Both the position numbers and the translations under genes were made by a program. DNA of 64,000 nt from Pseudomonas laurentiana (GTDB lineage Bacteria > Pseudomonadota > Gammaproteobacteria > Pseudomonadales > Pseudomonadaceae), in the NCBI RefSeq assembly GCF_014648275.1, contig NZ_BMQU01000009.1:124001-188000 (forward strand). Direction: 5' to 3'. Shown one piece after another: positions 35,911 through 52,566 of the stretch. Numbering within the stretch: position 1 is the stretch's first letter; the number at the start of each line of letters is the position of its first letter. Below the pieces are notes generated by a model. It was given only the letters and a program-made list of their open reading frames with translations, ran no database searches and was not told the DNA's origin.

Positions 35911-36762
35911 TTACTGAAGCAGTTTCAGCACGGCAGATGGCAACTGGTTGGCTTGAGCCAGAACCGAAGTCGACGCTTGTTGCAGAGTTTGCTGCTTGGT
36001 CAACTGAGCAGTCTCGGCAGCGAAGTCAGTGTCCTGTACGCGACCAAGTGCAGCGGAGGCGTTTTCGTTGATGTTCTGCAGGTTGTTGATGGTGCTGCTC
36101 AGACGGTTCTGTGCAGCACCGAGGTCAGCACGAGTGGTGTTGATGGTTTGCAGGGCAGTGTCGATTGCAGTGATCGCTTTCTGGAAGCTTGCCTCTGCAG
36201 TAGTACTATCCGAACCAGTGATAGCAACAGCGTCGGAGTCAACGCCCAGCTTCACTGCACCCATCGAGTCGCTCAGGGTGATGGAGATCTGGTCCGAAAC
36301 GCCATTGTTGGAACCAACCTGGAAAGTCATTGTACCAGCGTTACCGTTCAGCAGGTTCTTGCCGTTGAGCTGGGTGCTGCTTGCGATACGAGTCAGTTCG
36401 TCGGACATTGCCGCGAACTCTTTGTTCAGCGCTGCACGGTCAGTGGTGCTGTTAGTGTCGTTTCGCGACTGAATAGCCAGTTCACGCATACGCTGCAGAA
36501 TGTTGGTCTGCTCTTGCATCGCGCCTTCAGCGGTCTGGGCGATGGAGATACCGTCGTTGGCGTTTTTGATTGCCATGGTCTGACCGCGGATCTGCGAGGT
36601 CATACGGGTAGCGATCTGCAGGCCGGCAGCGTCATCTTTAGCGCTGTTGATTTTCAGGCCGGAAGACAGACGAGTCATCGAGTTGCTAAGTGCATCAGAG
36701 GCCCTGCTCAGGTTCTTCTGAACTGTCAGCGACGCAACGTTGGTGTTTACGGTTAATGCCAT
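35911..36762 (-). CDS. fliC: Flagellin FliC
   Basis: A 283-residue flagellin, the short form with little D2/D3. The N-terminal D0/D1 (MALTVNTNVASLTVQKNL) and the C-terminal region (QQASTSVLAQANQLPSAVLKLLQ) are highly conserved. The TLR5/FLS2 region at residues 30-51 reads TRLSSGLKINSAKDDAAGLQ. The central part, residues about 143-195, is rich in Ser and Thr and would face outwards; it is the probable site of O-glycosylation by the neighbouring enzymes. A FliA promoter precedes the gene and a strong terminator follows it. Confidence 0.98.
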   Translation of the reverse strand: MALTVNTNVASLTVQKNLSRASDALSNSMTRLSSGLKINSAKDDAAGLQIATRMTSQIRGQTMAIKNANDGISIAQTAEGAMQEQTNILQRMRELAIQSRNDTNSTTDRAALNKEFAAMSDELTRIASSTQLNGKNLLNGNAGTMTFQVGSNNGVSDQISITLSDSMGAVKLGVDSDAVAITGSDSTTAEASFQKAITAIDTALQTINTTRADLGAAQNRLSSTINNLQNINENASAALGRVQDTDFAAETAQLTKQQTLQQASTSVLAQANQLPSAVLKLLQ

Positions 36763-37110: not shown

Positions 37111-38040
37111 TTAGTCCGCACGCTGGATGATCGCCGATCCCCAGGACAGGCCAACACCAAAGCCACTCAACGCCACACGCTTGAAATTCGACTCAAGCAC
37201 GTGCTTTTCCAGCAACAGCGGAATGCTCGACGACACGGTATTACCCGTCTCGACCATGTCTTTGATGAACTTCTCCGGGTCGTCCTCGAAACGTCGTGCA
37301 ACCGCATCCACGATGGCCGCGCTGCCCTGATGGATACAGAACGCATCGATATCTGCCGGCTGCAGGCCGCTTTCACCCAGCAATTCATGCAGGTGGGCCG
37401 GGACCTTGAGCAAGGCAAAGTTGAACACCTGACGGCCGTTCATGAAAAATACACCATCAGTGACCTTCAGGTGTGCTGCACCAGAACCGTCGGTACCGAA
37501 CTTGGCTTTACCCAACTGCCACGGTGCATCTTCGCCCATCCAGGTAGCAGTGGCCGCATCACCAAACAGCATGGTGGTATTGCGGTCTTCCGGATCGACG
37601 ATCTTCGAATAAGGGTCAGCCGTGATCAGCAGGCCGTTCTTCAGGCCTGTGGCTTCCATGAAGCCCTTGAGCGCGTAGATACCATAGACGTAGCCCGAGC
37701 AGCCCAGCGAGATATCAAACGCAGCCACATGAGTCGGCAGGCCCAGCTTGTCCTGAACGATGGCAGCGGTATGCGGCAAGCCTTCTTCGTCACCATTCTG
37801 AGTAACGACAATCAACGCATCGATGGATTCACGCGAAAGCTGCGGGTTGGCCGCAAACAAGGCATTGACAGCTTCTACACAGAGGTCCGAGGTTTCCTGA
37901 GCGACATCTTTGCGTGGCAGGAAAGCGGAACCGATCTTGCCCAGGATGAAAGCTTCATCCTTTTCGAATTTTGCGCCTTGAGCGTAGTTGTCCACGCCAG
38001 CGGCCGGCACGTAACTGGCGATGCTTTTAATGCCAATCAT
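37111..38040 (-). CDS. 3-oxoacyl-ACP synthase III-like (KASIII) enzyme of the flagellin modification island
   Basis: A 309-residue thiolase-fold protein of the FabH type. The Cys-His-Asn catalytic set is complete: Cys114 (DISLGCSGYVYG), His237 (FCIHQGSAA) and Asn267 (ETGNTVSSS). It is not the housekeeping FabH, judging by context, as no fatty acid genes are near. P. syringae has a similar gene (orf3) in its flagellin glycosylation island, where it is thought to make or transfer an acyl group for the glycan. That role is inferred here. The ATG at 38040 is supported by GGGAAG; the frame could extend four codons upstream. A terminator follows. Confidence 0.87.
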   Translation of the reverse strand: MIGIKSIASYVPAAGVDNYAQGAKFEKDEAFILGKIGSAFLPRKDVAQETSDLCVEAVNALFAANPQLSRESIDALIVVTQNGDEEGLPHTAAIVQDKLGLPTHVAAFDISLGCSGYVYGIYALKGFMEATGLKNGLLITADPYSKIVDPEDRNTTMLFGDAATATWMGEDAPWQLGKAKFGTDGSGAAHLKVTDGVFFMNGRQVFNFALLKVPAHLHELLGESGLQPADIDAFCIHQGSAAIVDAVARRFEDDPEKFIKDMVETGNTVSSSIPLLLEKHVLESNFKRVALSGFGVGLSWGSAIIQRAD

Positions 38041-38140
38041 ATGGCTTCCCATTAATTAACAACTGAATACCCGCCGCTCGCACAGTGGAGAGGCACCGAC
38101 AATCAGGGATGTTTGCCACCCAAAAACGCGGCGAAGCAGG

Positions 38141-39131: not shown

Positions 39132-42062
39132 TTAACCGACCAGCACCTCCCACTCCACAGCCGTTGGAGCACCCAGGCCAAAGGTTCTGCCCGTGCGCGC
39201 ATGGCTCGCGTTATAGGCCGGATCGTTTTCCAGATAGCCCGGCCACTTCTCACGCAACGCCTGCAAAGCCGCTTCCTCATGCCCGACAGCGCCGTGATGA
39301 ATCACTTGCACCTGAGGCGTCCATACCGTCAGGTAACCCGCCTGAGCGGATTTCAAGCACAGGTCGACATCGGCGTAATGGGTCATGAAATCGACTTCAT
39401 CGAGGCCTTCCAGTGCCAGATACAGTTCCTTGCGGATCATCAGGCACGCGGCAGACAGGGCCGAAACGTTATGCTCGACATGCAGCCGCTGCATATAGCC
39501 AGCCGCGTCCTTGCCCTCACCTGCCAGAGCCGGCGCAACGCCTGCCCCAAAGCCCAGCACCAGGCCAGCCTGAGTGACCGTACCCGCCCGGTCGAGCAGC
39601 TTGCCACCCACGATACCAACCTCTGGACGCTGCGCCTGGTTAAGCAGGCTTTCCAGCCAGTTGGCGTTTACCACTTCGCCATCACTGGCCAGCAACACCA
39701 GATATTCCCCGATCGCCTGCTGACAGGCCAGGTTGGTCATCGCCGACGGGCTGATGGTCTGTTCGCTACGTACCACCCGAATACGATCGCCACCTGCGCT
39801 CAGGCTAGACAACCACGCCAGCAATTGCGGCGACTGGCTGTTGTTATCGGCAATGACAATCTCGTGATTCCGGTAACGGGTACGCTGCAGCACGCTCACC
39901 AGACAAGGCTGCAGTTGCTCCATGTTGTCCTGGCAATAAAGCACAATCGACACGAGTGGGCGTGCTTCATGACGATAGTCGATCTGGTAAGTACCCGGCT
40001 TTGCCGAACTGACCTGCCCCGGATAGCCGCGCTGTATTACCTGTCGCGTCAGGCTTGCACGCTCATGCTCATTGGACTCGAGCACGCGCGCCTGACCGAT
40101 CAACAGCGGCTCGGCCAAGTGAGCCAACCCAGCCAGTCCACCCTGCCCGATCAGGCGGAGCAACAGGTCGAATTCCAGTGCCCGGGCAAACTCAGCATCG
40201 TAACCGCCCACCTCAAGCAACAACTCGCGACGCACCAGCCAATGCCGCGCCATCAGACCCGGAACACTCTGCAACATGTCGAGACTGGCGCCTGGGCGTA
40301 AAACCTCTACCAGGGTACCGTCGGCCTGACGCATCACCTCATCCATTGCCACCGCACGGCAACCATCGGCCTCCAGCAACTCCAGGCTGGCGCGCAGCAA
40401 ACCACCTGCCGTGAAACAGTCGCCAGCCTCGACAAGAATCACCCAGTCGGTGCCGAGGGTAGTCAGCGCACGATTGAGTTTGTCGACATGATCCTCTGCA
40501 GTGACCTTGACGAAGTGTACGGTCTGCTCCGGTGTCGTGTTGGCGGGCAAATCGCCCGTGGTCAGCACCACAATCTTGAAAGCCTTGTAATGGCCCGCCA
40601 TCAAGCTGTCGAAGGTCGCCTGCAGCTTGAACATGTCGGCATCCAGGTCCAACAGCAGAATGCCGAAGGTCGGACCACCGGCATGACGAGCCAGACGCTT
40701 ATTGGCCAGACGAACCTGGACAGCTGTTGGATTGCGCGCTTCCAGCCAGTTCAGCAAACGCCCGGACGCCATACTGTCGAGCAGTATCTTGCGATCATAC
40801 GCGGGCACGCTGCACAAACGCTCAAACCAGCCTTGAAGCGGGGCAACCTCTTCATCATCGCCAGTGGCACGCAGCGACTTCAACAAACGCTCTACCACCG
40901 TACGGTTGAACGGGCTCAACCCCAAGGCTTCCCACAAGCGACTCTTGATCGTGCGCTCGGTGTCGTTGGCATGAACCTGCATCAGTTCCGATTGACGCAG
41001 CAAGATCGGCTCCAGCTCCTGAAGCTGCAAGCGACCCGCCGGCATGGCGTGAATCAGGAACTCGATACGTGCAAGCAGATCGAACATCGTCTTGTTATAG
41101 AACGGCATCTCGACGAATTGTTTCTCGCCAAAGAAGCGCACAGGCTCAGCCCCCGGCTGCGACCACTCGGAGCGAACGATCATGCAGGCTTCCAGCGCCC
41201 GCCCGCTTTGCAAGCCACGGGCCATTGCGGTAAAGCTCATCAACGCGATGTGCTTGATCTGATCAGGTGTCTTGTTGCGAAAGCCCATTGGCGTCGACGC
41301 CAGGAACTGAGCAAACGCCTCACGCTCGGCCACGGACTTGGAGTCGGTGTAGGTCAATACGGTCAAGACATTGGTGTTGTGCTCCGAGCCACCGTAGTTG
41401 ACCTCTCGCACAGCATAGGGAATGGGCAGGATCCTGGCCTTGGCACAGGCAAGCAGGTAGAACGCGTGACCAATTTCCTGCCATTCAAAACTGGTATTGG
41501 CCGGCAGCACGGCATACCACTGCTGCAGCAGGTCGGTGCGCGTCACCGCATAAAATGGCGGCAAGAACTGCCCGAGGAAGTCCAGCACCCGCTCTTCGGA
41601 AAGATCAGAGTTGTAGTCTTCACAAACCCGCTTGTCTCGGCGATAGAAGTTCACCTCGGTGCCACGCGCCAGGTACATCATGCCGTAGCCATGGCATAAC
41701 CCATACTCGGGATTTGCCTCAAGGAAGGCTACGGATTCAGCCAACGCATCGTGCAGGAGGAAATCGTCGTCGGCAGCAAAAGCCATGTAAGGCGTGTTGA
41801 CCTGCGCCACACCGTAGACCAGCTTATCCTGAAGGCCCTTGTAGCTGAACGCCGGCAGGTGGCGATAATCCACCTCAGGATAATCCTGGACAAGATCGTC
41901 TGCCGCCTCGCGCGAAGAATCCAGGACCAGCACTTTACCGCTAAAGCCTTGGTAGTACTGCAGCGTACGACGCAAGAAAGCCGGCCGTTCATGACTGATA
42001 ATGACCAGCGTAAAACGCTCTTTCAGCGCTGCGCCTTCTTGTGCAATGTGTTCAACGTGCAT
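39132..42062 (-). CDS. Multi-domain flagellin glycosyltransferase (Fgt2-like, TIGR00180-type N-terminus)
   Basis: A 976-residue protein. The N-terminal domain (about 1-260) is a GT-A glycosyltransferase of the TIGR00180 type: RFTLVIISHERPAFLRRTLQYY and a DDD motif in FAADDDFLLHDAL. A helical region follows; two further GT2-like folds lie at about 460-690 (FGILLLDLDADMFKLQATFDSL) and about 697-930 (LVSIVLYCQDNMEQLQPCL, IVIADNNSQSP). The last fold is clearly related to the third domain of the glycosyltransferase at 47336-50905. P. syringae fgt2 has similar size and position. It probably extends the glycan on flagellin serines before export. The ATG at 42062 follows AGGAAA; a longer frame has no support. 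Confidence 0.85.
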   Translation of the reverse strand: MHVEHIAQEGAALKERFTLVIISHERPAFLRRTLQYYQGFSGKVLVLDSSREAADDLVQDYPEVDYRHLPAFSYKGLQDKLVYGVAQVNTPYMAFAADDDFLLHDALAESVAFLEANPEYGLCHGYGMMYLARGTEVNFYRRDKRVCEDYNSDLSEERVLDFLGQFLPPFYAVTRTDLLQQWYAVLPANTSFEWQEIGHAFYLLACAKARILPIPYAVREVNYGGSEHNTNVLTVLTYTDSKSVAEREAFAQFLASTPMGFRNKTPDQIKHIALMSFTAMARGLQSGRALEACMIVRSEWSQPGAEPVRFFGEKQFVEMPFYNKTMFDLLARIEFLIHAMPAGRLQLQELEPILLRQSELMQVHANDTERTIKSRLWEALGLSPFNRTVVERLLKSLRATGDDEEVAPLQGWFERLCSVPAYDRKILLDSMASGRLLNWLEARNPTAVQVRLANKRLARHAGGPTFGILLLDLDADMFKLQATFDSLMAGHYKAFKIVVLTTGDLPANTTPEQTVHFVKVTAEDHVDKLNRALTTLGTDWVILVEAGDCFTAGGLLRASLELLEADGCRAVAMDEVMRQADGTLVEVLRPGASLDMLQSVPGLMARHWLVRRELLLEVGGYDAEFARALEFDLLLRLIGQGGLAGLAHLAEPLLIGQARVLESNEHERASLTRQVIQRGYPGQVSSAKPGTYQIDYRHEARPLVSIVLYCQDNMEQLQPCLVSVLQRTRYRNHEIVIADNNSQSPQLLAWLSSLSAGGDRIRVVRSEQTISPSAMTNLACQQAIGEYLVLLASDGEVVNANWLESLLNQAQRPEVGIVGGKLLDRAGTVTQAGLVLGFGAGVAPALAGEGKDAAGYMQRLHVEHNVSALSAACLMIRKELYLALEGLDEVDFMTHYADVDLCLKSAQAGYLTVWTPQVQVIHHGAVGHEEAALQALREKWPGYLENDPAYNASHARTGRTFGLGAPTAVEWEVLVG

Positions 42063-42111
42063 ATCACTTTCCTGCCGGCCACTGGGGCCTGTGCGCTTTA
42101 GACCAGAGAAT

Positions 42112-42849
42112 TCAACGAACCCGACGCAGATAGCCGTCCGGCGCCACACTAATCAGCAATTTGTCGTTCATTTGCTGATCGATTTCAAAATCGCCGTTTT
42201 CCTCCAGGTAGGCCCAGACCGCAGTCTTCGGGTTATCACCTGGCCCCCAGGGACGATCAGGAAAAGCATCGGCCGGCATGTCTTCAACCACCGTGTCCAT
42301 CACGACGCAGTAGCTGCCCAGCGAAACCAGTGGTGCATACAGCCGCAGTTCCTCAAGCACATGCTCATGGGTATGGTTGGAATCGAGTACCAAGATAACC
42401 TTCTTGCCCGCCGCCAACGCACGAACCTGTTCGACGACGGCCAAATCAACGCTGGACCCCTCGATCATGCGAATACGCTTGAACATCGGATGGTTTTCGA
42501 TGGCCTGGCGGTTGTGTGGGCGAATATCCCTGTCGATACCGAGCACCTCACCGTGCCCTTGCAGCTCCAGCAGCGAGGCGTAGTAGATAATCGAGCCGCC
42601 ATGGGCAATACCGCACTCGATCACCAGGTCCGGCTTGATGTTCCAGATCAGCTCCTGCATTGCCATCATGTCCTGAGGCAATTGAATGATGGGACGCCCC
42701 ATCCACGAGAAGTGATAACTGTACTTATGCCGGGCCGATTCATTGAAAAAGTCGCGAGCCAGACCTTTTAGCGTTTCGTTCTGGCCCTGGGCATCGATCT
42801 CAGCCTTGCACTCAGCCTCAAAAGCCTGATGTACGTTATTGTCAGTCAT
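42112..42849 (-). CDS. CmcI / rhamnosyl O-methyltransferase family protein
   Basis: A 245-residue protein with the CmcI-family pattern: WMGRPIIQLPQDMMAMQELIW, LVIECGIAHGGSIIYYASLL (SAM-binding loop), LGIDRDIRPHNRQAIENHP, VILVLDSNHTHEHVLEEL and GSYCVVMDT. The family is annotated as cephalosporin hydroxylase, but members in glycan clusters are usually sugar O-methyltransferases; given the sugar genes alongside, O-methylation of a glycan hydroxyl is more probable. The ATG at 42849 is preferred to a GTG four codons upstream. It lies 18 bp downstream of the C-methyltransferase gene. Confidence 0.85.
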   Translation of the reverse strand: MTDNNVHQAFEAECKAEIDAQGQNETLKGLARDFFNESARHKYSYHFSWMGRPIIQLPQDMMAMQELIWNIKPDLVIECGIAHGGSIIYYASLLELQGHGEVLGIDRDIRPHNRQAIENHPMFKRIRMIEGSSVDLAVVEQVRALAAGKKVILVLDSNHTHEHVLEELRLYAPLVSLGSYCVVMDTVVEDMPADAFPDRPWGPGDNPKTAVWAYLEENGDFEIDQQMNDKLLISVAPDGYLRRVR

Positions 42850-42867
42850 GTAGGGTCTCACTGATTG

Positions 42868-43935
42868 TCATTGAAACGAGGCGCTGTCTACAGCGTGGTA
42901 GACATAGCGCTCATCGGTCATGCGCTTGATTTCTTCGAGGTAGTTCGAGTTCATTACAAACAGGTTTGCGCCATCTGGGAGGCTGTCCAGCACCTCTTGC
43001 GGCGATGAAACGCGCAAACCACTGAGCGGCAGGTAACGCCCCTGCTTGGCCGGGTTGATGTCGACCACATGGTCCACCGCGACGCCAGCGCGCTGCAGGA
43101 ACAGCGAATAGATAACCCCCTTGGACGACGCCCCCCAGATCGCTGCGCGCTGATCGGGAGCGTCCTTGATGATCTGTACCGCCCGCTCAAGGCTGGCGGT
43201 GAACCCCGTCGGCATTTGCAGCAGGGCTGAGCCCGTACGCGGCGCGCGCAAACTGGCAAGATCGGCGACGACATAGAGGTATTGCCCGCCAAACAGATGG
43301 CCGGTTTCGTGAACCGTGCCGAAGAGCCGTCGCAGATCGTCAAGCCGGAAATAATTGACGTGCTCGTAGAACACGTCGAACCATGCATGGTGCTCGACAA
43401 TCCAGTCAAAGCACGGTACTTCGATGTAGATTTTTCCACCCTGGTTGGCGGCGGCAATTTCACTCAGGAATGCCTGCGGATCAGCCATGTGTTCCAGAAC
43501 ATGGCGCAAGACAATACCCTCGGCGGACAGCCCCAACTGACGCGTGAAAGGTGCCTTGATCACATCAGGATTATCGCCCTCGTAGGAAGGGTCGACGCCG
43601 GTGATGGTGTAGCCCCGCTCGCGCAACATCTCCAGGAAGTAACCTTTCCCGCAACCGACCTCAATCAAGCGCTGCCCACTGAAGTGGCGGGCCAGAATCT
43701 GCTCGACATCCCCCAAGTGCTTCTGAAACTGCGTCGAATGCGCCTGCTCGTTCTGGTAGTCCGCATCGTAGATCAGCTTGCTGCCATCAAACGCCTGATT
43801 GAAGATCAGACCGCTCTGCTCATCCTGTACCAGCACGATGTCCGCGTATCCGCTGGCGCGCGCCTCTTCGGCCGTCGCAAAGGTGCGGTTCTGCAAAACG
43901 GGCAAGCCTTGCGCCCGGTATAGCTCATGCGTCAT
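42868..43935 (-). CDS. NDP-hexose C-methyltransferase (TylC3/NovU type)
   Basis: A 355-residue SAM-dependent methyltransferase. Motif I is LIEVGCGKGYFLEMLRERG (about residues 89-107), followed by LRHVLEHMADPQAFLSEI and YIEVPCFDWIVEHHAWFDVFYEHVNYF. The C-terminal Rossmann-like domain with AIWGASSKGVIYSLFL is the Methyltransf_14 type found in sugar C-methyltransferases. The N-terminal zinc-binding cysteines of TylC3-like enzymes are absent; no Cys occurs before residue 90. It overlaps the ketoreductase-like gene by 11 bp. The likely substrate is a CDP-4-keto-6-deoxyhexose, methylated at C-3 or C-5; the position cannot be told from sequence. Confidence 0.82.
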   Translation of the reverse strand: MTHELYRAQGLPVLQNRTFATAEEARASGYADIVLVQDEQSGLIFNQAFDGSKLIYDADYQNEQAHSTQFQKHLGDVEQILARHFSGQRLIEVGCGKGYFLEMLRERGYTITGVDPSYEGDNPDVIKAPFTRQLGLSAEGIVLRHVLEHMADPQAFLSEIAAANQGGKIYIEVPCFDWIVEHHAWFDVFYEHVNYFRLDDLRRLFGTVHETGHLFGGQYLYVVADLASLRAPRTGSALLQMPTGFTASLERAVQIIKDAPDQRAAIWGASSKGVIYSLFLQRAGVAVDHVVDINPAKQGRYLPLSGLRVSSPQEVLDSLPDGANLFVMNSNYLEEIKRMTDERYVYHAVDSASFQ

Positions 43936-44782
43936 GCCGCTCTCCTGTCAGGTCTCGCAAACGCTCGGTCGAGCCCCAGAACGCCATGGGTTCATGATGC
44001 GAATAGGGGTAGTACCCAAGGTTCAAGGTAATCGCCGAATGGCGCTGGCGAACCCGCTGCTCGACCAGTGTGCGAACCGACACGGGCTTGCCACTGCAGC
44101 AGTTGATCACACCGGAAAACGTCCGCTGTTTCAGCACACTCAACAGCAGCCCGGCGGCTTCTTCGATGCTCAGGTAATCACGCAACTGCTCACCCGCCGA
44201 CATGTTGAATTGTTCATCGTTGGCATCGATGGCGCGATCCAGGCCGGCCAATAAGCTATTGGGCGCTTGCCCGGGGCCATGCAGATAGAACAACCGGGCC
44301 CACTGCAGGGTAAAGGGCTGCTCGCCCTGCAAACGTTCCAGGAACAGCCTCAAGGTATGCTTGGCAAGACCGTAGGCCGTGTTGGGTTGCGCTGGGCAGT
44401 GCTCGCTCAACTGGCCGTTCTGCATGCCGTACTCAAAACAGGTGCCCGTCACCAGAACCTGCCGCACCCCCGCCTCGACGACACGCTTGAGAAAGGCGTA
44501 GTCAGCCGGCAAATTGCGTTCGAAATGAAACAGCGCCTGATAGTTCGGCAGGCCAGGCCAGGCCAGGTGGGCAACCGCGTCCACCCCCTCGACCAATGCA
44601 TCGATTGGCAGCGCTGCGGCATGCACGTCGACCGCCATGAACTCGACCTGATCAAACCAGGGCATTTCCCGCGCCAGTTCAAGTCGACGGGCAACAGCCC
44701 GTACCGCAATGCCTTCAGCCAGCAAGGCAGCGACCAGATGTCGCCCTACAAACCCGGTAGCGCCGGTAACCAGCACCTTCAT
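43925..44782 (-). CDS. NAD(P)-dependent sugar epimerase/dehydratase-type reductase
   Basis: A 285-residue extended short-chain dehydrogenase. The Rossmann motif is VLVTGATGFVGRHL at the N-terminus, the catalytic pair is YGLAK (YxxxK), and VTGTCFEYG supplies the Ser/Thr region. In this cluster it most likely reduces the 4-keto group of the methylated hexose, completing the activated sugar; a C-4 epimerase role is possible. MKVLVTGATG is the start, since the upstream extension of 27 residues overlaps the preceding gene. It lies 11 bp after the epimerase gene. Confidence 0.8.
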   Translation of the reverse strand: MKVLVTGATGFVGRHLVAALLAEGIAVRAVARRLELAREMPWFDQVEFMAVDVHAAALPIDALVEGVDAVAHLAWPGLPNYQALFHFERNLPADYAFLKRVVEAGVRQVLVTGTCFEYGMQNGQLSEHCPAQPNTAYGLAKHTLRLFLERLQGEQPFTLQWARLFYLHGPGQAPNSLLAGLDRAIDANDEQFNMSAGEQLRDYLSIEEAAGLLLSVLKQRTFSGVINCCSGKPVSVRTLVEQRVRQRHSAITLNLGYYPYSHHEPMAFWGSTERLRDLTGERHDA

Positions 44783-44793
44783 CGGCCGCTGGC

Positions 44794-45354
44794 TCACACG
44801 CGCACACCCGCAAAATCGGCATCGAGCAACGGATGCACCGCATCCTTGGCGGAGAGATTGCACACGGGCAACGGCCAGGAAATAGCCAAAGCAGGATCAC
44901 TCACCAACAACCCGGCCTCATGCGCTGGCGCATAGTCGGCATCCGTGAAGTAGAGCACTTCAGCCTCATCACTGAGTGCCTGAAAACCATGGGCAAAACC
45001 CGCTGGAATCAACAGGCTCCGACCATCGTCGGCGACCAGCTCCTCAGCATGCCATTGGAGGAACGTTGGCGAATCAGGGCGCAGATCGACAGCCACATCC
45101 CAGATAGCACCACGCACACAGGTGATCAATTTCGCTTCGGCGTAGCCCGCCTGCTGGTAATGCAGACCACGCACACTGCCCTTGCCGAGGGTACGTGAAT
45201 GGTTGATCTGGCGAATCTCGAAGGATCGGCCCTGCACACTGAGCCGGCTCTGGCAAAACAAGCGGGCGAAGCGGCCACGATGGTCATGGAAGACTTTTTG
45301 CTGGATCAGGCAAAGCCCTTCAAGCGCTAGCGGCTGCAGATCAAAGTCACTCAT
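44794..45354 (-). CDS. rfbC: RfbC-like NDP-4-keto-6-deoxyhexose 3,5-epimerase
   Basis: A 186-residue cupin of the dTDP-4-dehydrorhamnose 3,5-epimerase family. Active-site elements are visible: FHDHRGRFARLF, the catalytic His in VRGLHYQ, IPAGFAHGFQAL and the Tyr of VLYFTDADYAP. With RfbF and RfbG as neighbours, the substrate is probably CDP-4-keto-6-deoxyglucose, epimerised at C-3, C-5 or both, rather than the dTDP-sugar. Its ATG overlaps the rfbG stop (ATGA). No rmlA, rmlB or rmlD is present in the window. Confidence 0.87.
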   Translation of the reverse strand: MSDFDLQPLALEGLCLIQQKVFHDHRGRFARLFCQSRLSVQGRSFEIRQINHSRTLGKGSVRGLHYQQAGYAEAKLITCVRGAIWDVAVDLRPDSPTFLQWHAEELVADDGRSLLIPAGFAHGFQALSDEAEVLYFTDADYAPAHEAGLLVSDPALAISWPLPVCNLSAKDAVHPLLDADFAGVRV

Positions 45355-46433
45355 GACCAGTCCTTGTAAAGGTTCAGTTGATAAAGCGTTACCGCACGCA
45401 TGTCCTTGCCCGCCTGCCAGGCCATATGCCAACCCACGGTCTGCTCCAGGCACTGCTGCAACGACCAGCGTGGCTGCCAACCAAGCAACTGCCGAGCGCG
45501 GCTGCTGTCCAGGCGCAGCAGGCCGGCTTCGTGCATGTCGCTGGGCTCAACGCGCAAACCCGGCGCCTGTGGCCACTGACTGGCAAGCGAGGCAATCACC
45601 TCACCCACACTGCACATGTCGGCGTCATCAGGCCCAAAGTTCCACGCGCCGGCAAACACCGGCCCCTGCTCATAAAGCGCAGCCGCCAATTGCAGGTAAC
45701 CCGCCAGGGGCTCCAGCGCGTGCTGCCAGGGCCTGACGGCCTTGGGATAACGCAGCGTCACCGGTTCATCGGCCGACCAGGCCTTGAGCACGTCCGGGAT
45801 CAGGCGCTCGGCAGAAAAATCGCCACCACCCAACACGTTCCCGGCACGCGCGGTCGCCAGGGCCAAGCCATGCTCGGCATACTGCTGTGGATTGAAGAAT
45901 GATGCCCCATAGGACTGCGCCAGAATCTCGCAACACGCCTTGCTGCTGCTGTAGGGGTCATGCCCCCCCAACGCTTCATCTTCACGATAGGGCCACAACC
46001 ACTCCCGATTGGCATAGACCTTGTCGGTGGTCACCAGCACGCATGCACGTACGCCACCGACCTGCCGAATCGCTTCCAGCAGATTCAGGGTACCCATGAC
46101 ATTGCTTGAGTACGTACCCAACGGATCGCGGTAACTTTCACGCACCAGGGGCTGTGCCGCCAAGTGCAAGACGATCTCGGGCTGTACTTCGGCCAGCAGC
46201 TCCAGCAGCACGCCCAGATCGCGCACATCGCCACGGCGATCATCAATCCCCTCGGCCACCCTTGCCAGCGCAAACAGGCTGGGCTCGGTGGCCGGGTCAA
46301 GGGCAAAGCCTGTGACCTGGGCACCCATGCTCTGTAACCAAAGCGTCAACCAGCTGCCTTTGAAACCCGTGTGGCCGGTAAGCAGCACACGCTTACCTTC
46401 CCAGAACGCACGGCTTAGTCCCATTGTTTCCAT
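45351..46433 (-). CDS. rfbG: RfbG CDP-glucose 4,6-dehydratase
   Basis: A 360-residue extended SDR. The NAD-binding motif [19 protein letters not shown] is specific to CDP-glucose dehydratases; [13 protein letters not shown] and [11 protein letters not shown] carry the catalytic Thr-Asp-Lys and YxxxK residues, and [14 protein letters not shown] is also typical. It converts CDP-D-glucose to CDP-4-keto-6-deoxy-D-glucose. The ATG at 46433 lies after GGGGAGG, with a 19-bp overlap with rfbF. This product is the branch point for the modifying enzymes that follow. Confidence 0.94.
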
Positions 46434-47188
46434 GGGGCCTCCCCGCTCTGCCAGAGGTGCTCCAGGTGATTCTTGTCACGCAGTGTATCCATCGGCTGCC
46501 AGAAACCATCATGCTGGAAAGCATGCAGTTGCCCTTCACTGGCCAGGCGACTGAGGGGTTCGGCTTCCCAGGAGGTTGCATCACCCGCAATGTAAGGCAG
46601 TACCTTGGGGGATAGAACGAAGAACCCGCCATTGATCCAGCCGCCATCGCCACGCGGTTTCTCAGTGAAACCCAGCACTTGATTGCCCTCGCGCTGCAAC
46701 GCGCCATAACGACCTGGCGGCTGAACAGCGGTCACGGTTGCCAGCTTGCCATGGGACAGGTGGAAATCGACCAGCGCACCGATGTTCAGGTCAGAGACAC
46801 CATCGCCGTAGGTAAAGCAGAAGGCTTGTTCGTCCTCAAGGTAACGCCCGGCACGGCGCAAACGGCCACCGGTCATTGTCTCCTCGCCGGTGTCCACCAG
46901 CGTAACGCGCCACGGCTCGCTGTAGTTCTGATGAACGTCCATGCGGTTGTTGCGCATGTCGAAGGTGACATCGGAGGTGTGCAGAAAGTAGTTGGCGAAA
47001 AAATCCTTGATCGCATAACCCTTGTAGCCCAGGCAAATCACGAAGTCGTGAATGCCGTGCGCAGAGTACTGCTTCATGATGTGCCAAAGAATTGGCTTAC
47101 CACCGATCTCGATCATCGGTTTAGGTTTGAGGTGCGACTCTTCGCTGATCCGCGTGCCGAGACCACCCGCCAAAATGACTGCCTTCAT
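46415..47188 (-). CDS. rfbF: RfbF glucose-1-phosphate cytidylyltransferase
   Basis: A 257-residue nucleotidyltransferase. The signature [17 protein letters not shown] followed by [18 protein letters not shown] starts the protein; [17 protein letters not shown] holds the metal-binding Asp, and [13 protein letters not shown] and [12 protein letters not shown] are family motifs. It makes CDP-glucose from CTP and glucose-1-phosphate. MKAVILAGG is the start, after GAGGAAA. A 147-bp gap upstream holds an 8-bp hairpin and no recognised promoter. Confidence 0.95.
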
Positions 47189-47335: not shown

Positions 47336-50300
47336 TCAGTCGGCCAACCAGCCCCACACCCAGTGCTGCAGGTTGTCCGCACGCAATACAAAGTCGCGCA
47401 GCACCGCTTCACGCAACTCATCGCCCATGCGATAGCTGGCGGCCGGGTCAGCCAGGTGCATACGGATCGCCTGCAGCCACTCCTGGGTAGAGTTGCTGCG
47501 AACCCGTGTGCAAGGCAAGTATCCCCGGTAGGCCTCGGTATCGGTACAGACCACCGGATAACCACAGGCGCCATACTCCAGCAGACGCAGGTTGCTCTTG
47601 CAGTCGTTGAAGATATGGAACTCCAACGGTGCCAGGGCCAGGTCCAGGTCCAGGCTGGCCAGCTTCGCTGGGTAGTTTTCCAACGAAACGACGGGATGAT
47701 ACTCATGGATGTAGGGCTTAAGGTTCTCCGGGCACATGCCAAAGAACACCCACTCCACCTCATTGGCCAGCTCGCGGACCACCTCGGCAATGATTTCCAG
47801 GTCGCCGCTATGGCTGGTACCCCCCCCCCAACCCACCCGTGGCTTGTTCGACGTGCCACGCTTGCTGTTCAGGCCCAGCCACAAATGCGGCGCCAGCATG
47901 TTCGGCACCACGCGAATATCTCGGTGCATACTGGAAAGTGCATTGGCCAGGGCGTCCGTGGTGACCACGACGCGATCACACAAACCTATGCCTCGGCGCA
48001 GATGCTGCTCAGTATCACGCGGTTTGTTACGCGCATGGATATTTTTCTTCGGCGCCTCCAGGACGTAGTCGTCGATCTCGTAGATCCGGCGTGCCGAAGC
48101 GATATTCTTGACCCGCTCGATGTCATTGACACTTTCCGAGGAGTGGCGAAGCTGGATGATCACCACATCCGGATTCATCCGCGCGATTTCGACCGAAGGC
48201 GGGACCTCAAAGCTGATTCGCCCGAACACACGCCCTGCGGCTTCAAGCTCACGCAGCGGCTGATTCACACGATAATGACCCACTGCGGTGTTGTTGACCG
48301 GCAACGCCAGAATGGAAGGCAGCGTGCGCAGAACCAGAGGGTTCCAACTGTCACGCAAGCTGGGCTCCAACGTAAACGCCGAACGGGTCAGACTCAGGCT
48401 AGGGTTGTAGGCTGGGTCACGGATTACACTGGGTAGCCAGCGCTGGATCAGCGCTTCCTGCTCTGGCTTTCCAGCCACCTCCCCCAAGTAGCACGGCTTG
48501 TCTTCACGCGTCTGAACGACGGTTGCATAGGGCGTTCCGACCACGAGGTAACCCGCCTGGCCGACCCGCAAACACAAATCAATGTCGGCCAGGCTCTGGG
48601 CAAACGTCGCCTCATCGAAACCACCCAGATCCTTGAAAACCTGAGTGCGTATCATCAGGCAACTTCCGCTCACCGCACTCCAGTTCTGAGCCACCTGAAG
48701 ACGCTGCATGTACCCCCGCGCATCCGAAAGCTCGCCAGCAAATGCAGGCCCCGCCGCACCACCCAAGCCGAGGATGACGCCGGTATTGGCAACCTTACCC
48801 TTGGGATCAACGAGGCGTGCGCCAACGACACCCACTTCCGGTCGCTGCGCGTGGTTAAGCAGCTCAGCCAGCCATTGAGCCTGACAAACCAGGTTATCAG
48901 CTGCAAAGAACAGCAAGTACTCGCCCCGCGCCTGCTCGGCAGCAAGGTTGTTGATGGCCGCTACACCAGCACCTTGCGGTGCCTCCAGCACGCGCAAGAG
49001 GCCACCGCCCATCTGCGCCATCGCGTCGAGCCAGTCACGCATGCCAGCATTGCATTCCGGCCTGCCGACAATCAGCAGCTCGTATTGGCTGTATGTGGTG
49101 CTCTCCAGCACCCCCTCAACACAGCGCTGAATGGCTGATACGTCATCACCCGCGACGATGATGAGCGAGACCAGCGGCTGTTCCGCATGCAGGTACTCAA
49201 CGCGATTGAGCAATGGCAACGCGTCATGATGAATCCGATACTCGACCCCCAATCGGTTCAAGTGCGCAGCGAGTAGCGCACTGCTCTGCTCGATCACCGA
49301 TGGCAACGACAGCCACTGGGTGTAGGAGAATGCAGACTCCACCTGAATCTCGGCAATATGCTCGATTGCAGACAGGCCACTGGACTCTGCAATACGCCAG
49401 ACCATGTCATGGGGCGCAAGCTCACCCAGTGACGACTCGAAACCACCCAGGGCAAGCACCTGTTGGCGCTGGAACGCCAAGGTTCGACCCACATAGGGGT
49501 AGGCGCGCATCAAATCGAGGTTGAAGTCGGGCTTGAACACCGGGTCACAGGACTCGCCGTCCCACACGGCACCTTCATCGCTGTAGGCGCAACGCATACC
49601 GGGTGTTGCAGCAATGCGCTCGGCAAGCAGCAGCAACGCCGACTCACTCAACCGGTCACCAGCCCGCAGCAGGTAGATCCAGTCCACCCCTTCCAGCGCC
49701 GGCATCGCACTGTTGACCTGCGCCGCCCAGTTCTCAGCGAGCGGCAAATGCACAACATGCGGCTCGACCACACACTCGGCATTGGAAAGCAACAACACCG
49801 CCGTCGGCGCGTAAAGTTGAGCGGCCAGGCTATCGAGCGTGACCTTCAGTGCAGCCTTATCCTGCTCTGGGTCGACAATAACCGGAACGATTTTCGGCTG
49901 CGAAGGCCATTTGAACACCTGCTCGCACACCATCCGCCGCTGAACTTCCGAGAACCGTCGTGCCGCAAGCCATTGGCGGTAAAACTCGGCATAACTTTCA
50001 CAATTGCTCCCCACACGCCCCTGAATCACGGTGTGCCAGTTACTCAGCGCACGTACCAGGTATAACTCTTTCCAGTCGCGACCTGACTCATTGGCATCGG
50101 CCAGCTCGACATAGCGAACCCAACCACGGACAGGCGCATCGTCACAAGTGCGGGCGGCTAGCATCTGACGCAACCAGTTCCGCTCGCTTTTTGCAGCTCG
50201 GATGATTTCAGGCTGCTTGCTCAGGCGCTCCGGGTGCAGCCGCTCAACACTCAGTACATGGGTTAGCAGCGTCATATTGCCTCGACGCAATAGGCACATG

Positions 50301-50905
50301 AACAGCGCTTGCTCGATCAATGTGACAAAGCCTACACCTGTTGTAGTCAACGCCCGTAGCATCTCTTGAACATCCTGGGTTCGCATCAGGGAAGATGAGA
50401 AGTTGCCCAGAAAATTGACATCCAATACATCGAGAACGGTCAGCAGGTCTTCGCCCTTGAACACTGAATCAATCGAGGTAAACGGGCAATTGTCACCTCG
50501 CACAGGCAACACAAAATCATCGGTATCGACCTGCAAGCGATAGGCTTGAACAAGATTGACCTCAGGATGCTGGATGAGCACCTGTGCTTGCAGTTCGATA
50601 CACCGGGCAAACAGTCGGTCATCGTCACAGAGAACCTTGATGTACTCGCCTTGCGCCTCCTCGACACAGCGCAATAAATTGCGCTGGAAACCGAGCCGTT
50701 TTGGGTTGCGCAAGTACCGAATACGGGCGTTGCCCTGCCCCTCAAGGGAACCGGTGATCTGCTCGATATCCTCATCACGACTGTCATCACAGACAACGAT
50801 TTCAAGGTTTTCGTAGGTCTGGCCCAAGGCGCTCCGCAAGGTCATGGAGAAAAAGCGCGCGCTGAAGGCTGGGATAACGATGCTGACGAGGGGGGCTGTA
50901 ATCAC
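47336..50905 (-). CDS. Giant multi-domain flagellin glycosyltransferase (Fgt1-like)
   Basis: A 1189-residue protein with at least four modules: a GT2 domain at about 1-230 (LVSIVIPAFSARFFSMTLRSAL, EIVVCDDS, KVLCDDDRLF); a GT2-like domain at about 335-560 (IYLLRAGDRLSESALLLL, AYSDEGAVWDG); another at about 575-800 (LVSLIIVAGDDVSAIQRCV); and a GT-B (GT1/GT4-like) domain at about 860-1189 (VVPNMLAPHLWLG, RVGWGGGTSHSGDLEII, LLEYGACGYPVVCTDTEAY). P. syringae fgt1, next to flgL, has similar size and position and adds the first sugars to flagellin. The GTG start at 50905 is weakly supported; it follows the flgL terminator, so the island may depend on partial read-through. Confidence 0.86.
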   Translation of the reverse strand: MITAPLVSIVIPAFSARFFSMTLRSALGQTYENLEIVVCDDSRDEDIEQITGSLEGQGNARIRYLRNPKRLGFQRNLLRCVEEAQGEYIKVLCDDDRLFARCIELQAQVLIQHPEVNLVQAYRLQVDTDDFVLPVRGDNCPFTSIDSVFKGEDLLTVLDVLDVNFLGNFSSSLMRTQDVQEMLRALTTTGVGFVTLIEQALFMCLLRRGNMTLLTHVLSVERLHPERLSKQPEIIRAAKSERNWLRQMLAARTCDDAPVRGWVRYVELADANESGRDWKELYLVRALSNWHTVIQGRVGSNCESYAEFYRQWLAARRFSEVQRRMVCEQVFKWPSQPKIVPVIVDPEQDKAALKVTLDSLAAQLYAPTAVLLLSNAECVVEPHVVHLPLAENWAAQVNSAMPALEGVDWIYLLRAGDRLSESALLLLAERIAATPGMRCAYSDEGAVWDGESCDPVFKPDFNLDLMRAYPYVGRTLAFQRQQVLALGGFESSLGELAPHDMVWRIAESSGLSAIEHIAEIQVESAFSYTQWLSLPSVIEQSSALLAAHLNRLGVEYRIHHDALPLLNRVEYLHAEQPLVSLIIVAGDDVSAIQRCVEGVLESTTYSQYELLIVGRPECNAGMRDWLDAMAQMGGGLLRVLEAPQGAGVAAINNLAAEQARGEYLLFFAADNLVCQAQWLAELLNHAQRPEVGVVGARLVDPKGKVANTGVILGLGGAAGPAFAGELSDARGYMQRLQVAQNWSAVSGSCLMIRTQVFKDLGGFDEATFAQSLADIDLCLRVGQAGYLVVGTPYATVVQTREDKPCYLGEVAGKPEQEALIQRWLPSVIRDPAYNPSLSLTRSAFTLEPSLRDSWNPLVLRTLPSILALPVNNTAVGHYRVNQPLRELEAAGRVFGRISFEVPPSVEIARMNPDVVIIQLRHSSESVNDIERVKNIASARRIYEIDDYVLEAPKKNIHARNKPRDTEQHLRRGIGLCDRVVVTTDALANALSSMHRDIRVVPNMLAPHLWLGLNSKRGTSNKPRVGWGGGTSHSGDLEIIAEVVRELANEVEWVFFGMCPENLKPYIHEYHPVVSLENYPAKLASLDLDLALAPLEFHIFNDCKSNLRLLEYGACGYPVVCTDTEAYRGYLPCTRVRSNSTQEWLQAIRMHLADPAASYRMGDELREAVLRDFVLRADNLQHWVWGWLAD

Positions 50906-50997: not shown

Positions 50998-52566
50998 TCA
51001 GAGCTGATTGAACAGGCTCAACGACGATATCTTGCTGAACGCGAGCTGAGAGGCCTGCAGCATGGTCTGCTGCAAGTTCAGACGAATCAGCACTTCAGCC
51101 GGGTCTGCATCACGTATCGAGCTCTGAGTCTTGGTGTTGGCCATCTTCAGGCTTTCATTGGTTTCAGCCTGAACATCCAGTGCCGCACCGCGGGCGCCAA
51201 TGTCACTTATGGCCGAAGAAACCTGATTCAAGCCACTGGCAACGTTACCAATAGCCGAATCCAGTGCAGCCAGGAATTGCTGCTTGGCCAGCGGATCGTT
51301 ATCGACTGGCAAGGCCAATGCCGTGCGCAACTGACCAATAGTGTCGAGGATGTTCTGGGTCTGATGGGTATCGACCTGAATGGAGAACTGATCACCTGTT
51401 GCGGGCGCACCGGCCAGGTCAAAGGTCACCCCTGCCGCCGTGGCGGTGGTGCCACTGAGCGTACCGGTCGACACCGGTTTGCTGTTGGCGGTAAGCGGCT
51501 GCGCATACAGTTCAAAGTCAGTGGCGCTGGTGAACTTCAGAATGGCGCCGCCACCCGGAAAGGCACTGTTGTAAGCCGTAGCATCGGCGATGGAGGCATT
51601 GGTGACCTGCGACGAAGAGCTGTTGCCTGGGCTGCGCGAACCAGAAATGGAGTCGGGTTTGGCCGCCAGTGTGAAGGTGTGCCCCGCAATCGCCGCGTCC
51701 GGGTTGGCGTTATCGCCCGGCTGGAAGTTAATCGCCAGGCGCATATCAACACCACGGAAGCCGATCATCTTGTTGCTGGAGGCTGGATCAAACGTGCCGC
51801 CTTGCGTGGCTTCCAGCGTGACGTCGTTGTTGGACGCATCGGTGATCTTGAACTGTGTGCTGCTGAGGAAGGTGATGGTATAGGGCTCACCGCTGCGGAA
51901 GCGGTCATTGTACGTCGCACTGCCAGACACCTGACCGTTGGACAACTGAACCCGCCCATCATCAACAGCAGGCGAAATCAGGTTCGTCTCACTACGACTG
52001 GTATTGAGTGCCTGCTCAAACACGGCATAACCACTTTCATTGGTCGCCATTGTGAGCATGTCACCCACCTGCAAGTTCAAGGTGCCCTGGTCACCCTGAT
52101 AGGTGTAGGTGCCATCCGAATTGCGCACATACGGCTGGGTATCGCCTCGCGAACCGGAGAACAGGTATTTACCGTTCTCGTCACGGCTGTTCATCAGCGA
52201 ATAGAGTTGCTCTTCAAGCTGCCCCAGCTCCTGGGCGTTGGCCTTGCGATCGGCGTCAGTGAAGCCGGCGTTACCGGAACTGATAGTCAGTTCGTTGACC
52301 CGCTGCAAAATCGCGCTGATGCCGTTAAGTACACCCTCAGAGGCGCCCAGCGAGTTACGCACGTTGGTCGTATTATCGCCGTACTGGCCCAACAGGTTGC
52401 TTTGCTGCTCCAGCTGCAACAGCCGCGCTGCGCCGACCGGGTCATCCGCTGCGGTCCGTATACGCAAGTTGTCACTGACCTGCTCGCCCGATCTCACCGC
52501 ATTGGCGAAATTGCGCTGATAGGTTGAAGTGCTGCTTTCGTAATACTGGGAAGTAGAAATACGCAC
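50998..52566 (-). CDS. flgL: FlgL hook-filament junction protein
   Basis: A 522-residue HAP3. The N-terminus (MRISTSQYYESSTSTYQRNFAN) and C-terminus (LQQTMLQASQLAFSKISSLSLFNQL) carry the flagellin-like D0/D1 coiled coils; the Ser/Thr/Gly-rich middle is large, making the protein longer than the roughly 440 residues of P. aeruginosa. It joins hook and filament with FlgK. It starts 13 bp after flgK. The extra middle region is surface-exposed and could itself be modified, though nothing shows this. Confidence 0.96.
   Translation of the reverse strand: MRISTSQYYESSTSTYQRNFANAVRSGEQVSDNLRIRTAADDPVGAARLLQLEQQSNLLGQYGDNTTNVRNSLGASEGVLNGISAILQRVNELTISSGNAGFTDADRKANAQELGQLEEQLYSLMNSRDENGKYLFSGSRGDTQPYVRNSDGTYTYQGDQGTLNLQVGDMLTMATNESGYAVFEQALNTSRSETNLISPAVDDGRVQLSNGQVSGSATYNDRFRSGEPYTITFLSSTQFKITDASNNDVTLEATQGGTFDPASSNKMIGFRGVDMRLAINFQPGDNANPDAAIAGHTFTLAAKPDSISGSRSPGNSSSSQVTNASIADATAYNSAFPGGGAILKFTSATDFELYAQPLTANSKPVSTGTLSGTTATAAGVTFDLAGAPATGDQFSIQVDTHQTQNILDTIGQLRTALALPVDNDPLAKQQFLAALDSAIGNVASGLNQVSSAISDIGARGAALDVQAETNESLKMANTKTQSSIRDADPAEVLIRLNLQQTMLQASQLAFSKISSLSLFNQL

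Follow-up and report, generated by a model that had tools for sequence, protein, structure and literature searches.

Plants and animals recognize flagellin as one of their main microbial patterns, and some phages use it as a receptor; studies of hosts and microbes and of phages would both have a use for a swappable flagellin methylation cassette. Among described C-methylated 6-deoxyhexoses, vinelose (6-deoxy-3-C-methyl-2-O-methyl-L-talose) has been known since the 1960s as the nucleotide sugar cytidine diphosphate (CDP)-vinelose, whose source we take to be Azotobacter vinelandii. Noviose is formed as its deoxythymidine diphosphate (dTDP) derivative by NovV, NovW, NovU and NovS, and virenose is a 3-C-methyl 6-deoxyhexose that occurs in Coxiella as guanosine diphosphate (GDP)-virenose, thus differing from the sugar discussed here in its GDP linkage and as a lipopolysaccharide (LPS) sugar. 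Here we analyzed a 64,000-nucleotide stretch of Pseudomonas laurentiana DNA (the window; RefSeq assembly GCF_014648275.1, contig NZ_BMQU01000009.1, positions 124,001 to 188,000), which harbors six sugar biosynthesis and modification genes between flgL and fliC. We propose, with a probability of roughly 0.62, that these genes form a CDP-vinelose-type cassette for flagellar glycosylation, which would supply flagellin with a CDP-linked 6-deoxyhexose bearing both a C-methyl and an O-methyl group.

In P. syringae, flagellin carries a methylated modified sugar on rhamnose. In the excerpted text of PMC3927599, Fgt1 of pv. tabaci attaches rhamnose to serine, the chain ending in a viosamine that is O-methylated, whereas the flagellin of pv. 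syringae B728a shows a 203-160-146 Da pattern that includes a 160-Da methylated deoxyhexose. A preliminary description of the window, made from the sequence alone, had set it against a P. syringae flagellin carrying modified viosamine and rhamnose, which is right for pv. tabaci and does not extend to B728a. Like the P. syringae fgt1/fgt2 system, the window has glycosyltransferase genes upstream of fliC and a gene resembling that of a β-ketoacyl-acyl carrier protein synthase III (KAS III); in contrast to the sugar proposed for P. laurentiana, the viosamine of P. syringae is a dTDP sugar encoded by an island at another site (PMC3927599, in excerpt). The KAS III-like gene (37111-38052) precedes fliC, the viosamine island of P. 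syringae also having a KAS III, and no viosamine aminotransferase was detected among the scanned genes between flgL and fliC. A different, phosphate-linked modification is present on the flagellin of P. aeruginosa PAO1 (PMC11833859, in excerpt). Our search of the open-access PubMed Central (PMC) literature found neither a mention of vinelose nor a structure for a glycan of the P. laurentiana type.

The preliminary description had placed five adjacent genes at 42868-47188, and these are indeed present on the minus strand: rfbF, rfbG, rfbC, a short-chain dehydrogenase/reductase (SDR) gene and a methyltransferase gene, here named CMT2, all overlapping or a few bases apart (Table 1). Family scores support each assignment, that of the SDR at the superfamily level only. 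The rfbF/rfbG, rfbG/rfbC and SDR/CMT2 pairs overlap, and 11 bases separate the rfbC stop codon from the chosen SDR ATG, gene starts being our choice among candidate starts. RfbF and RfbG score far above their equivalog cut-offs, in support of the CDP activation proposed earlier; RfbC clears the RmlC cut-off narrowly (164 versus 155.75 bits), its RmlC membership being assigned by this TIGR01221 score. The product of the sixth gene falls below the rhamnosyl O-methyltransferase equivalog NF045824 (109.4 versus 400 bits). Profile searches of the P. laurentiana genome (5,209,936 bases, 223 contigs) found rfbF and rfbG of the cassette as the sole copies over cut-off, and a second RmlC (284 bits) on another contig. 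An RfbH-type 3-dehydrase was not found over cut-off (NF011936, best genome score 119.2 versus a cut-off of 423 bits); since no genome protein reaches this cut-off, a 3,6-dideoxysugar pathway was rejected. No match to CMT1, the canonical zinc-type C-methyltransferase, was found in the genome at E 1e-100.

Table 1. Genes of the cassette and its flagellar surroundings in the window.
Feature	Position	Strand	Family evidence
rfbF, glucose-1-phosphate cytidylyltransferase	46415..47188	-	TIGR02623 463.8 bits, cut-off 300.25
rfbG, CDP-glucose 4,6-dehydratase	45351..46433	-	TIGR02622 478.3 bits, cut-off 278.45
rfbC-like cupin, 3,5-epimerase, form linked to CMT1-lacking islands	44794..45354	-	TIGR01221 163.7-164.4 bits, cut-off 155.75
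SDR, probable C4 ketoreductase	43925..44782	-	PF01370 95.9 bits
CMT2, zinc-domain-less relative of sugar C3-methyltransferases	42868..43935	-	PF13489 88.4 bits; PF08484 30.2 bits, cut-off 23.5
CmcI/rhamnosyl O-methyltransferase family protein, sixth gene	42112..42849 (or GTG start at 42861)	-	PF04989 313.7 bits, cut-off 23.2
GTa, multidomain glycosyltransferase	47336..50905	-	PF00535 (two stretches) and weak GT-B-like match
GTb, multidomain glycosyltransferase (may start later than given)	39132..42149	-	PF00535 and TIGR04440 over cut-off
fliC flagellin, presumed acceptor	35911..36762	-	Flagellin_N 151.5 bits
flgL, upstream flank of island, same flank in relatives	50998..52566	-	Flagellin_N 75.4 bits

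Our analysis directly established the gene families and their order, the single rfbF and rfbG, the predicted fold of CMT2, the missing canonical C-methyltransferase and the alternation of SDR and aminotransferase genes described below; every chemical step, the methyl positions, the product and the acceptor are what we infer. In the pathway that we propose, RfbF would convert glucose-1-phosphate and cytidine triphosphate to a CDP-activated sugar, from which RfbG would form CDP-4-keto-6-deoxyglucose. RfbC may then epimerize C3 and C5, as RmlC does. CMT2 would add a methyl group to a carbon beside the 4-keto group, probably C3, as in its structural relatives, and possibly C5, after which the SDR would reduce the 4-keto group. 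The CmcI-type protein would methylate one of the ring hydroxyls, presumably that at 2-O if vinelose is a guide, and GTa and GTb would transfer the sugar to flagellin, where it might follow an initial rhamnose in the manner of P. syringae.

To compare this cassette with A. vinelandii we used genome G056 (one contig, 5,366,370 bases), which we take to be this species, as its AnfG is identical over 119/119 residues to PDB 8boq, presumably from A. vinelandii. Only one RfbF and one RfbG score over cut-off in G056, both in a single cluster with the order rfbF, rfbG, rfbC, CMT1, SDR, CmcI, PhyH-like and TylF-like. This cluster adjoins a flagellin gene and a gene for a TPR/GT41-GT2 protein, and MotA- and OmpA-domain genes lie about 2.4 kb past the flagellin. 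Because it is the only CDP-glucose route found in the genome, the cluster should make CDP-vinelose, if A. vinelandii is indeed the source of this sugar. Its proteins are similar to those of P. laurentiana (RfbF 75%, RfbG 50%, RfbC 52% and CmcI 50% identity), and the product predicted for P. laurentiana is, like CDP-vinelose, a CDP-linked, C- and O-methylated 6-deoxyhexose; however, A. vinelandii has the zinc-type CMT1, whereas P. laurentiana has CMT2 only, with no CMT1 orthologue. The preliminary description had likened the pathway to that of dTDP-noviose. This holds in outline (4,6-dehydration, epimerization, C-methylation and 4-ketoreduction), and NovW and RfbC match with 108 bits, but activation in P. 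laurentiana is of the CDP type, a zinc-type NovU-like enzyme is missing (E 1e-100) and CMT2 belongs to another subfamily. Vinelose appears to be the better-matching CDP-sugar analogue. The F113 genome paper (PMC3570484, in excerpt) lists RfbC, RfbG and RfbF among those genes of the A. vinelandii flagellar cluster that F113 lacks.

The C-methylation step depends on the nature of CMT2, which matches sugar C3-methyltransferases by profile and by model over nearly its full length, well above other methyltransferases. In a comparison based on AlphaFold models of 21 sequences and on the solved structures of the C3-methyltransferases KijD1, MtmC and TcaB9 (no NovU structure was among them), the predicted fold of CMT2 matched all three over the S-adenosylmethionine and C-terminal domains, nearly the whole chain. 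Four of the five TcaB9 active-site residues compared (Y76, H181, Y222, E224 and H225) are matched in CMT2 and invariant in 119/119 relatives, including the Glu-His pair and the H181 equivalent. CMT2 would be a relative of sugar C3-methyltransferases and may transfer methyl to a carbon next to the 4-keto group. The gene designated earlier as a sugar C-methyltransferase has the predicted fold of such enzymes and a match to PF08484, the C-methyltransferase C-terminal domain, but lacks the zinc domain of the NovU type.

To place the cassette among relatives, we used a named scan for CMT2 relatives (159 confirmed, 80 returned, all Pseudomonas, with CMT2 present by construction). The rfbF, rfbG, rfbC, SDR and CmcI genes were found in 80/80 of these loci, so that the gene set of the preliminary description does recur in other Pseudomonas islands. 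CMT1 is present in 69/80 loci, located between rfbC and the SDR gene and 57-65% identical to CMT1 of A. vinelandii, and is missing from 11/80. Among 398 Pseudomonadaceae genomes, 70 encode CMT1 (E 1e-100) and 31, P. laurentiana included, encode CMT2 relatives of at least 69% identity. Named and unnamed fetches, which overlap, gave 161 islands, or 147 distinct ones after collapsing identical rfbC/CMT1/CMT2 DNA. At a threshold of more than 50% identity for CMT2, under which loci L021 and L094-L096 with their distant CMT2-like proteins are scored as lacking it, 86 carry both CMT1 and CMT2, 45 CMT1 only and 16, including that of P. laurentiana, CMT2 only. In 12 distant loci from other families (L089-L100), rfbF was found in 9/12 and the whole set in 6/12. 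A chance array of unrelated genes was set aside because the same gene order occurs in many genomes, with the full set in 80/80 named loci (found by CMT2) and 6/12 distant loci. The island is widespread in Pseudomonas and not peculiar to the P. laurentiana genome.

Regarding the C4 step, an SDR gene is present in 126 of the 147 distinct islands and a DegT/DnrJ aminotransferase gene in the other 21, with both in 0 and neither in 0 (genes were counted only if at most 6 kb from rfbC). This mutual exclusion, our best evidence for the role of the SDR, supports its assignment as the probable C4 ketoreductase. Islands with CMT1 only are divided between the two (24 SDR, 21 aminotransferase). In some CMT1 islands, the aminotransferase and a second open reading frame (ORF) replace the SDR gene (L203:10932-12757, L200:7639-9524 and L218:7708-9521), which suggests that a 4-amino, perhaps N-acylated, C-methyl sugar may decorate the flagella of those species; in L203, this second ORF encodes a hexapeptide-repeat protein.

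The flagellar assignment is based on location. The cassette is bounded by flgL and fliC and framed more closely by two multidomain glycosyltransferases (GTa, 1189 amino acids; GTb, 1005 amino acids), and this location is kept in the genomes of many relatives. The glycosyltransferases are conserved with it, GTb in 80/80 and GTa in 71/80 named Pseudomonas loci. The presumed acceptor, the fliC product, has 20 Ser/Thr within residues 135-215.

Comparison of relatives also points to exchange within the island. In P. defluvii WCHP16, the closest of the named relatives (CMT2 96% identical), DNA identity to P. laurentiana is only 58-86% from about 46800 to 44019, whereas the adjoining 47600-46801 and 44018-42019 are 91-98% identical. 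This swapped segment of about 2.8 kb covers rfbG, rfbC and the SDR gene, and the P. defluvii version includes CMT1. On quick trees, several rows of which have long branches and from which seven loci lacking the island or cut were left out (L080, L081, L083, L084, L097, L099 and L100), the CMT1 label changes 1 time for rfbC, 2 for SDR, 4 for CMT2, 9 for rfbG and 10 each for rfbF and CmcI, compared with shuffled means of 14-16. The RfbC proteins of CMT1-lacking islands form one clade of 16-17 islands (99% support in the Shimodaira-Hasegawa-like approximate likelihood-ratio test, SH-aLRT) and share no more than 73% identity with the RfbC of any CMT1 island, whereas RfbG and CmcI reach 98-99%. Residues that discriminate the two RfbC forms were seen, and a C5-only epimerase role for the CMT1-linked form would be conjecture. 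In 10 proteins chosen from the 161 islands, RfbC exceeded the TIGR01221 cut-off in 5/5 CMT1-lacking islands and 0/5 CMT1 islands. The epimerase form, the SDR and the presence of CMT1 thus move nearly as a block. The form of RfbC may be tied to CMT1 status by function; linkage would account for the pattern equally well, as rfbC, CMT1 and SDR are neighbors that appear to be swapped together.

Several observations weigh against a vinelose-like flagellar cassette. Unlike KijD1, MtmC and TcaB9, to which its identity is just 14-19%, CMT2 gave no match in a Pfam scan to PF08421, the Cys4 zinc domain carried by NovU-type enzymes and present in A. vinelandii CMT1, and it has Phe189 at the position of TcaB9 Tyr222 (Phe in 118/119 relatives). 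CMT2 occurs with SDR only (102/102 islands), a pattern that methylation of the 4-hydroxyl would explain as well. At E 1e-3, the SDR of P. laurentiana has no counterpart in the cluster of A. vinelandii, so that the C4 configuration is not transferable, and that cluster has additional TylF-like O-methyltransferase and PhyH-like dioxygenase genes (L018:8300-9957). Loci L080 (4724-5830) and L081 (9134-10282) carry CMT2 alone, outside a flagellar island, the islands of their genomes G287 and G392 (L227 and L228) having CMT1 and no CMT2; L071 has CMT2 but no CmcI; and L194 (2468-6018) and L197 have rfbF, rfbG and CMT1 with no rfbC, CmcI or matched SDR. More diverged patches relative to P. defluvii lie in GTa (75-84% at 50800-49801 and 80-88% at 48400-47801), showing that the island is a mosaic and the rfbC segment not its sole swapped piece. 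Moreover, in 12/146 distinct islands the stretch lacks both flagellar genes and GTa/GTb, although one of them, L021, has FlhB, and no fliC or flgL match was found in the fetched stretches of the 12 distant loci; the final destination of the sugar made by these latter sets need not be the flagellum everywhere.

Taking these points into account, CMT2 could be an O-methyltransferase that follows the SDR, with the newly formed 4-hydroxyl as one conceivable target, which would give a di-O-methylated, unbranched 6-deoxyhexose and leave C-methyl sugars to CMT1 islands, an alternative that we consider unlikely. It would explain the strict association of CMT2 with SDR, as opposed to the divided CMT1-only islands, as well as the missing zinc domain and the Tyr222 to Phe change, and it would spare the 86/102 CMT2 islands that also carry CMT1 a second C-methyl step. 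However, the near full-length match to sugar C3-methyltransferases and the invariant Glu-His pair and H181 equivalent argue for C-methylation, and linkage alone may account for the co-occurrence of the neighboring SDR and CMT2 genes. Less probable still, CMT2 may methylate C5, which would make the product a CDP-linked 5-C-methyl sugar resembling noviose, the analogue named in the preliminary description. The presence of both methyltransferases in 86/147 islands suggests different positions, and the RmlC-type score of RfbC in CMT1-lacking islands is consistent with C3 having to stay free for epimerization; on the other hand, the RfbC difference may be linkage, and the relatives of CMT2 with solved structures methylate C3. 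Least probable is a role in LPS or another surface polymer, with the place beside flagellar genes being incidental, as the distant loci and the listing of P. protegens Pf-5 rfbF and rfbG with LPS genes and RfbH (PMC12361813, in excerpt) might suggest, given the conserved flgL-fliC location, the retention of GTb and GTa and the lack of an RfbH over cut-off in P. laurentiana.

If the cassette is indeed of the CDP-vinelose kind, it would connect CDP-linked branched sugars, as a class, with a set of genes and with a probable function. More broadly, and as a tentative view to which we give somewhat less than even odds, the flagellar islands of Pseudomonadaceae may be an interchangeable CDP-6-deoxysugar kit reshuffled by recombination, its parts being two kinds of C-methyltransferase, matched epimerases, a C4 reductase or aminotransferase and an O-methyltransferase. 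The flagellins of close relatives would then differ by one methyl or amino group, islands with both CMT1 and CMT2 would make a doubly C-methylated deoxyhexose, and CDP-vinelose would be the flagellin sugar donor of A. vinelandii. The predicted residue mass is about 174.09 Da in P. laurentiana (deoxyhexose, 146.06, plus 2 x 14.016 for the C-methyl and the O-methyl). It rises to about 188.10 Da where a relative has CMT1 as well as CMT2, if all three methyls are on one sugar, and falls to about 160.07 Da for an island like L071.

A promoter scan returned 1 site versus 6.5 expected. A PHROGs search gave no match for CMT2 or CmcI, its single match being a nucleotide-sugar epimerase for the SDR. Finally, the pseudaminic acid genes for PseB, PseC and PseF (over cut-off) adjoin the island genes in L194.

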